Positions 54,739-59,540 of a stretch of DNA of 64,000 bases are shown here, one piece after another. The notes under the pieces are model-generated. The model worked only from the letters and a program-made list of their open reading frames with translations, did no database searches and was not told the DNA's origin. The position numbers and the translations under genes were made by a program. The stretch is from Mycobacterium sp. DL440 (GTDB lineage: Bacteria > Actinomycetota > Actinomycetes > Mycobacteriales > Mycobacteriaceae): the NCBI RefSeq assembly GCF_011745145.1, contig NZ_CP050191.1:5906473-5970472 (forward strand), read 5' to 3'. Each line of letters starts with the position of its first letter. Position 1 is the stretch's first letter.

Positions 54739-55725
54739 ATGGATGTTGTTATCGGTATTGCCATGACCTCGCGTGACGCCCGGCTTCTCCTGGTCGAGGG
54801 CACTCACGGCGACGGCGCGGTGATCGACCACGACTCGGTCGACGCGGACACCCGCATCGGCGCCGAGCACCCCGGCTTTCACGAGTACGTCGTCAACGCC
54901 GTGCTCGACACCTGCGCCGATGCGCCCGCGAACGGATACACCGTCACCCGCGTCGCATTGACCTGGACCGACGCGGTGGACGCCCACGCCAAGCTGGTGC
55001 TCGACGTCCTCGCGGAGCAGGGCATCGCCACGGTGACAGTGGTCTCCACGATCGACGCGCTCGAAGCCGCCACCGAATACACCGTCCAGGTCGCTGACTC
55101 CGACTCCATCGCGCTGTGCGTGGTGGAACCCGAGGAGACCATGCTGGCCGTGATCGGCGCCGAGGGCGACGACGGTACGCGCCGGTTGCGTAGTCGCCGT
55201 CTCGACGGAGCTGACGAGGCCACCGCAGTGCTGGCCCTGCGCGGCGTCTGCGAGAGCTTCCCTGAGCCGATCGCCGAAGTCGCCATCGCGGGGTCGGCAC
55301 CCGACGCGGAAAGCCTTGTCGAGGAAGTGAATTCAGTGATGTCGCGGCCGGTTGTGCTCGGCGACGACGCCGCCCTGGTGCTGGCCCGGGGTGCGCTGCT
55401 CTCCAGCGCCGACGTTCGGGACGAGGCCACGTCGGCTCCCAAGCACGACCCGGTGATGCGCACCCTGACGACGATTGTGATGACGGCGGTGCTGATCGTG
55501 GCAGGTTCAGTTTTCCTCGCGCTCACCGTGCACGGGAACGACGGCAGCCCCCCGCAGCAGGCGTCAACCCCGGCCCCGGCCCAACACTCTGCACCGGCCG
55601 AGCCACACGTCCACACCGTCGTGCGCAAGGTAGTGCCACTGGCCGGGCGTGCTGCGGAGAAATCCTTGGAGACGCCCCACGCGGACAACGTTGTGCCGCC
55701 GTCGACAGGGGTGGTCCGTCGGTAA
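54739..55725 (+). CDS. DUF7159-family membrane protein (actin-like fold, TM, exported tail)
   Basis: This 328-residue protein opens [21 protein letters not shown], resembling the first strand pair of Hsp70/actin-like ATPases. [21 protein letters not shown] is in the place of the second phosphate loop, and the segment [19 protein letters not shown] ... [18 protein letters not shown] resembles the C-terminal adenosine-site helix (GG.s..p.. then ARGAAL). Catalytic glycines are missing, so it is probably a non-hydrolysing pseudo-ATPase. One membrane helix at about 242-265 follows, then a Pro/His-rich exported tail. Function unknown. A paralogue lies at 58119. The dcd gene starts 16 bp after its stop codon. 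Confidence 0.75.
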
Positions 55726-58118: not shown

Positions 58119-59540
58119 GTGGACATCGTATTGGGTGTGGCGATGGCACCTACGACGGTCCGCATGGTGCTGGTCGAGGGGGAGAAGGCGGACGGCGTCA
58201 CCGTCGATCACGACGTCTTCGATGTCACCGCCGGTGATGATTCGGCAAGCATCAGTGCATCCGATCAGGTGGTCGCGGCCATCCTCGGAACTCAGGAGAG
58301 CGCCACCACGGGTGGGCACCATCTGAAGTCGATCGGCGTCACCTGGACGGACCATTCGGACGCGGCCGCGCTGCGCGACACACTGTCCGCGCACGGCATC
58401 GACGACGTCATGCTGGTCTCCGAAAGTCATGCCGCCGCGGCACTGGCCCAGGCGGTCGGCCGCGCGGTCGGTTACGACACCACGGCGCTGCTGTTCATCG
58501 ACCGTGACGCTGCGACGCTGTCGGTGGTGAAGACTGACGACGGTTCGGTGGTCAAGGTGTTGGCGCAGTCTCTGCACACCACTGACGCCATGGCCGTGCT
58601 CACCGACATGGCCGCGGCGGTCGAAGCGTCCGATTCCGCGCCCGACGGCATGTTCGTCCTGGGCGCTGGGGTGGACGTCGCCTCGGTGAAGGCGCATCTG
58701 GAGAACCTGGTGTCGCTGCCGGTCAGCGCCCCCGACGAGCCGGAGATGGCGCTGGCCCGCGGTGCCGCGCTGGCCTCGGCCACCGCGCCCGCGTTCGAGG
58801 CGACCACGGTCGGGCTGGCCTATTCGCAGGACCCTGACGGCACCACCGCGGGCAGCGCCTACGCGCTGGCCGGCCTGGCCACCGAGATGGCCCCGCTGGG
58901 CGACGCGCCGGTCGGCGGCGTCGGGCTCGTCGGCGATGAGATGCCGATGGAAGAGGAGCGCAAACCGTTCCTGCTCGTCGGCTCCGCGCTGACATCCGTG
59001 TTCGTGGTTGGCGTTGTGGCGCTGGTTATTTCGCCTGTCGCTTATACACATCTCCAAGAGGCCCCGGCGCCCGCACCGCAGGCGCCGCCCCGCACGGTCT
59101 ACGTCGAGCAGCCCGCCGCGGCCCCGCCGCCGGCGCCCGAAGCTCCGGCTCCGGTCCCCGAGGCTCCGCCGCCTGCTCCCGAGCCGGCCCCGCCGATCTA
59201 CAACCCGCCGGCGCCGTACATCCCGCCGCTGGTCGTGCTGCCGCCCGCGCCGCGGCTGCCGAACATCTTCCGTCCGCCGTGGGACCCGCCGCAGCGTCAG
59301 CGGCCGTGGGATCCGCCGTCGCGCCATGAACCGGAAACCCCGCAGTGGCCAGGCTCAGGTTCGGGTGACTGGAACCCGGGTCGGGGCTCAGGCGATTGGA
59401 ATCCCGGTCGTTCGGGTGGCTCGGGTGACTGGAACCCGGGTCGCGGCTCAGGCGATTGGAACCCCGGTCGCTCCGGTGGTTCGCGCGGTGGCGGCGACGG
59501 TGGGGGGCTGTGGCCCTTCCCGTCATTTGGTGGGCACTGA
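58119..59540 (+). CDS. DUF7159-family membrane protein with Pro-rich/GSGDWNPGR tail; contains suspected adapter sequence
   Basis: The 473-residue frame starts at GTG 58119 with GGAGG 5 bp upstream (MDIVLGVAMAPTTVRMVLVEG). Residues 1-270 have an actin/Hsp70-like plan: opening strands, LLFIDRDAATLSVVKTDDG, then FVLGAGVDVASVKAHLENL and DEPEMALARGAALASA. A membrane helix follows at about 287-307 (LLVGSALTSVFVVGVVALVI). Then the frame passes through a 19-bp Tn5 mosaic-end-like sequence, encoding PVAYTHLQE, before a Pro/Ala-rich tail and four GSGDWNPGR units ending Gly-rich. Compared with relatives the junction residues are suspect, although the frame stays open. Paralogue of the gene at 54739. Confidence 0.7.
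   Translation: MDIVLGVAMAPTTVRMVLVEGEKADGVTVDHDVFDVTAGDDSASISASDQVVAAILGTQESATTGGHHLKSIGVTWTDHSDAAALRDTLSAHGIDDVMLVSESHAAAALAQAVGRAVGYDTTALLFIDRDAATLSVVKTDDGSVVKVLAQSLHTTDAMAVLTDMAAAVEASDSAPDGMFVLGAGVDVASVKAHLENLVSLPVSAPDEPEMALARGAALASATAPAFEATTVGLAYSQDPDGTTAGSAYALAGLATEMAPLGDAPVGGVGLVGDEMPMEEERKPFLLVGSALTSVFVVGVVALVISPVAYTHLQEAPAPAPQAPPRTVYVEQPAAAPPPAPEAPAPVPEAPPPAPEPAPPIYNPPAPYIPPLVVLPPAPRLPNIFRPPWDPPQRQRPWDPPSRHEPETPQWPGSGSGDWNPGRGSGDWNPGRSGGSGDWNPGRGSGDWNPGRSGGSRGGGDGGGLWPFPSFGGH
59035..59053. other. Tn5 mosaic-end/Nextera-like 19-mer inside CDS
   Basis: The sequence matches the 19-bp Tn5 transposase mosaic end used in tagmentation libraries at 18 of 19 positions (G in place of T at position 6). 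It sits at the junction of membrane helix and Pro-rich tail of the DUF7159 protein. The minus-strand translation gives GDVYKRQ, a peptide string I recall as a frequent sign of adapter carry-over in database proteins. No transposon is nearby. Confidence 0.8.
59361..59480 (+). repeat. 60-bp tandem duplication encoding GSGDWNPGR units
   Basis: Two 60-bp units (59361-59420 and 59421-59480) differ at only a few positions. Each encodes two DWNPGR-containing segments, giving four units at the C-terminus of the DUF7159 protein. Such in-frame repeats can expand or contract by slippage. Confidence 0.85.

Follow-up and report, generated by a model that had tools for sequence, protein, structure and literature searches.

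A Nextera adapter mosaic end very probably built into a DUF7159 gene in the genome assembly of Mycobacterium sp. DL440

Nineteen bases inside a DUF7159 family gene of Mycobacterium sp. DL440, at positions 59035-59053 of the window (the whole stretch of 64,000 nucleotides that was analysed), are with a probability of roughly 97% the mosaic end of a Nextera (Tn5 tagmentation) adapter, brought in on read ends and built into the assembly. The adapter origin of the 19-mer itself is as good as certain. Judging from the sequences compared here, the site is very probably an assembly artefact of an untrimmed Nextera adapter in which part of the real gene was replaced, and the 19-mer is very probably a laboratory error rather than biology, and not a real feature. 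The same error had been proposed in an earlier note on this DNA, and it is borne out by nine other places with adapter sequence in the assembly, by sharp junctions at the site and by two further assemblies that carry adapter sequence in the same gene. The features concerned, in window coordinates, are the following.

58119..59540, plus strand: gene for a DUF7159 family protein (473 aa from the GTG taken as start), very probably shortened by the artefact
58968..59033, plus strand: probable membrane helix directly before the artefact, read by eye from the translation
59034..59035: left junction, with gene sequence to 59034 and adapter from 59035, where the similarity of relatives stops
59035..59053, minus strand: Nextera / Tn5 mosaic-end sequence (18/19), adapter-derived and very probably not genomic
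59053..59058: right junction, with gene homology back at 59053/59054 and a possible false overlap with the i7 arm
59054..59353, plus strand: proline/alanine-rich tail, 79% GC, a region of frequent breaks in related assemblies

The product of the DUF7159 gene matches PF23717 over residues 2-226 (55.5 bits against a cut-off of 27), and the gene is flanked by genes for an ammonium transporter and a UDP-glucose dehydrogenase. A second DUF7159-like stretch is found a few kb upstream, at 54739-55431 of the window on the plus strand (30% identity to the product of the DUF7159 gene, E 7.2e-18). A search for DUF7159 in the open-licence literature gave no match.

On the minus strand, 59035-59053 reads AGATGTGTATAAGCGACAG, with a single mismatch to the Nextera / Tn5 mosaic end, which confirms the match of 18 bases out of 19 claimed previously. 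This is the sole match in the 64-kb window when up to three mismatches are allowed. That such a match is very unlikely by chance, as also claimed, agrees with the absence of any match at the same threshold in 100 dinucleotide shuffles of the window, and with the 2e-6 matches at no more than one mismatch that are expected per 64 kb from base composition. PMC10499228 describes trimming of the same 19-mer, in the opposite orientation, and names it as Illumina adapter.

The frame of the DUF7159 gene translates through the 19-mer as ...ISPVAYTHLQEAP..., and a minus-strand frame across it as ...GDVYKRQ.... The residues VAYTHLQE had been taken for adapter-derived; this holds for PVAYTHL, the only residues encoded by the adapter (the first and last of these codons contain one gene base each), but not for QE, which is gene sequence, as many relatives have QE at this point and homology resumes at 59053/59054. 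GDVYKRQ is likewise encoded as stated, but its standing as a string familiar from contaminated database proteins found no match in open-licence papers. No i5 or i7 arm is attached to the 19-mer at this site (L018; arm score 8, with shuffles reaching 14). A 24-base match to the i7 adapter does cover the site (92%, E 0.008), but it is made up of the 19 adapter bases plus gene bases; we rejected it as an adapter arm because relatives are near-identical after 59053 and the arm score lies below that of the best shuffle.

Both junctions with true gene sequence are sharp. The 40 bases to the left of 59035 are matched with at most 10 mismatches (lowest 2) by 51 loci of relatives, and in those 51 loci the 19 bases that follow show 12 or more differences to the 19-mer of the window, so that the true sequence on the insert side of the mosaic end (here the left side) stops precisely where it meets the adapter. 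On the right, the 40 bases from 59054 have counterparts in 10 loci of relatives with no more than 8 mismatches (3 in the best), and the six bases 59053..59058 agree with the beginning of the i7 arm at all but one position. In the alignment with orthologues, a check that the earlier note had put forward, homology thus halts at 59034 and returns at 59053/59054, so that just these 19 bases at the site are foreign.

What the adapter stands in place of is seen in the homologues (the best 120 of 3965, drawn from 7993 candidates sharing most words). Immediately behind the membrane helix, 119 of these best 120 have a conserved stretch; the protein of the window is the only one without it, and this protein is also the only one with the string YTHL (0 of the 119 other homologues among the matches listed). 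Between fixed points, the window has seven residues, those encoded by the adapter, against 57 in the best-scoring relative (P0002; 95% identity across 62% of the query), in line with the suggestion that a segment of true gene was lost or replaced. Among the matches listed, the closest homologues with a name come from species of Mycolicibacterium, for example M. fortuitum, M. boenickei, M. porcinum, M. setense and M. peregrinum, and near relatives have intact copies of the gene. Two proteins, P0019 (M. conceptionense) and P0015 (M. boenickei, 471 aa), have a shorter linker or tail without adapter residues and could be natural variants or collapsed repeats.

The adapter at 59035-59053 is not alone in the assembly, which consists of one contig of 6,381,854 bases (6.38 Mb). 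With up to three mismatches, the contig holds 12 mosaic-end matches at 10 places, against 0.16 expected from base composition, and the reversed mosaic-end pattern, used as a control on the same contig, gives no match. The other nine places lie near 730512, 1094316, 2788251, 2929154, 4155178, 4225056, 4460626, 5308640 and 5472339 (L009-L017); seven of them carry adapter arms, one an arm fragment and one a mirrored pair of mosaic ends. When the assembly was searched with full adapters, the i7 adapter was found at two places (E 1.9e-17, an 88% match across the full 66 bases, and E 1.4e-12) and the i5 adapter at four (E 2.4e-16, 3.6e-14, 2.3e-13 and 3.3e-8). The arm score exceeds all 200 shuffles at seven of the 12 mosaic ends (L009, L010, L011, L012, the minus end of L014, L015 and L017), by a somewhat lenient control in which shuffles were compared with two adapters and sites with the best of 44; it does not exceed the shuffles at either L013 end, the plus end of L014, L016 or L018. 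The index is readable at five of the 12 ends, with the same i7 at two sites (24 against 17 for the runner-up, and a narrow 35 against 33) and the same i5 at three (31/23, 28/20 and 35/27), and the tied indices of L011 and L012 are not readable. Flanks were read at all ten places, and nine of the ten stretches are without N. The adapter at L012 is followed directly by 100 N. L013 has a pair of degenerate mosaic ends that face outward with six bases between them. L014 also has an outward-facing pair, separated by about 115 bases, and the left part of this intervening sequence is i5 adapter. At L016 an i5 arm fragment (E 0.0025) on one strand adjoins a mosaic end on the opposite strand. This N run and these outward pairs look like the pattern expected of joined adapter-bearing contig ends.

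Most likely, an adapter-bearing contig end was falsely joined across a gap to give the present gene. The GC-rich linker would have been poorly covered by short reads, so that a contig stopped there with adapter read-through as its end. Scaffolding or gap-closing may then have joined this adapter-bearing end to the next contig, perhaps by way of a few bases at the beginning of the i7 arm that are almost the same in the gene, and the linker, left unsequenced, would have been lost at the false join. The reading frame would have remained open through the adapter by chance, and it is for this reason that the DUF7159 gene looks normal but shorter.

The adapter could also have entered by another route, through polishing or local reassembly of a long-read or reference-guided chromosome with untrimmed Nextera reads. 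Single-contig genomes are rarely obtained from short reads alone, and both the single 6.38 Mb contig and the lack of N in nine of the ten stretches read would fit such a history. We nevertheless regard this route as rather unlikely, as the 100 N that follow the adapter at L012 and the outward-facing pieces at L013, L014 and L016 resemble joined contig ends.

The location of the 19-mer at a GC-rich spot, part of the original interpretation, is borne out: GC content in 59056-59155 reaches 83%, compared with a mean of 67% for 100-base tiles of the window (sd 5.5%). DNA folding was considered as the reason why this spot is difficult and set aside, single-strand folding of the linkers of four relatives being not unusual, with z of only -0.49 to -1.36 (two control stretches from the same genes gave 0.20 and 0.96). 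As this folding signal is weak, GC content is the preferred, though not proven, cause. Published accounts of Nextera at high GC disagree: according to PMC4744016, it misses very GC-rich regions of M. tuberculosis, whereas PMC9330563 reports that the bias of Nextera XT hardly affects high-GC species, which speaks against poor coverage of the linker.

It is also conceivable that the adapter scrap landed in a linker that is truly shorter in this strain, in which case little real sequence would have been lost. Linker length does vary: over the wider linker, measurable in 68 of the best 120 proteins, the window has 34 residues, P0019 has 52 and the other 66 have 78-95, and P0015, at 471 aa, looks shorter as well. 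However, both P0019 and P0015 keep the conserved stretch after the helix, whereas the protein of the window alone is without it and its loss starts at the adapter, and we consider a naturally short linker improbable.

That the gene contains a genuine transposon end, of Tn5/IS50 type or from the laboratory, or the scar of one, is far less probable still, even though engineered Tn5 transposons also end in a mosaic end. The 64-kb window contains one mosaic end only (at up to three mismatches), with no cargo between the junctions. Insertion of Tn5/IS50 gives a 9-base target duplication, and the nine bases flanking the 19-mer on either side are not repeats of each other when compared by eye. The three proteins scanned (that of the DUF7159 gene and those of its two neighbours) are not encoded by transposon genes, and the index-bearing Illumina arms found elsewhere in the genome are not part of a transposon. 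That no transposon surrounds the site, as had been observed, is upheld by the single mosaic end and by the identity of the neighbours. As for a chance resemblance of natural gene sequence to the mosaic end, the open reading frame would permit it, but it is hardly credible given the 2e-6 matches expected in the window, the restriction of YTHL to this protein (0 of 119 other homologues among the matches listed), the coincidence of the 19-mer with an exact break in homology and the adapter arms elsewhere in the assembly.

Assembly breaks in this gene are not peculiar to Mycobacterium sp. DL440. Among 55 named loci (65 were examined, and 10 in which the helix motif was not found by pattern were left out), 12 lie on contigs that break off no more than 400 bases past the helix and one more on a contig that ends 1460 bases past it, and two of the 55 are cut off within 3000 bases before the gene (L112, L113). 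In M. peregrinum 852002-51209_SCH5440388 the gene is split across contig_18 and contig_49 (L095, L155), one of which starts with i7 adapter followed by the linker, and contig_44 of Mycobacterium sp. NS-7484 (L096) ends in i5 adapter inside the same DUF7159 gene; the breaks in these two genomes belong to the 12 contigs or their partners. M. septicum DSM 44393 (L102) shows 26 N in a row some 150 bases past the helix, and another genome (L089) has 100 N inside the DUF7159 linker. The M. peregrinum case is like that of the window in that the same linker of the same gene is broken with a Nextera adapter, with which one contig begins, and unlike it in that the two contigs were left unjoined and an i7 arm is present, with another index. 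NS-7484 likewise has the end of a contig, made of Nextera i5 adapter, in the same gene; it differs from the window in that the break lies further along the tail, the index is another one and the contig was not joined.

Mosaic ends are found more widely in the genus. At up to two mismatches, 21 of 148 genomes (that of the window included) contain one, and the reversed mosaic-end control is found in none of the 148. A single locus was read in 19 of the 20 other positive genomes. Of these 19 loci, 15 are no more than about 160 bases away from a contig end, the insert side pointing into the contig in all 15, and of the four internal loci one adjoins a 100-N run. A location near contig ends with the insert side facing inward is the pattern of adapter read-through. 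The site in the window resembles Nextera / Illumina DNA Prep read-through in having a mosaic end whose insert side faces a sharply ending true sequence, and in the further arms present in the assembly. It differs from the typical case, that of the 15 loci near contig ends, in being internal and gapless, joined to sequence on either side and leaving the reading frame open, and from Nextera read-through also in the one mismatch of its 19-mer and in having no arm at the site. Titles and abstract openings in the open-licence literature yielded no description of such a case.

The adapter problem is not limited to the Mycobacterium sp. DL440 record, since 21 of the 148 genomes of the genus are positive. 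It is also one that ordinary quality measures miss, as the genome is listed as a single contig, 100% complete and with a contamination of 0.14; a genome rated 100% complete thus contains a hidden flaw. It seems somewhat likely that the proline/alanine linker is a recurrent break point of short-read assembly across Mycolicibacterium, that database copies of DUF7159 have repeatedly been cut, gapped or spliced to adapter, and that part of the length variation in the family is artificial. The DUF7159 gene in the window encodes residues from a commercial oligonucleotide, and anyone using its protein to define domain boundaries or to study length variation would be misled.
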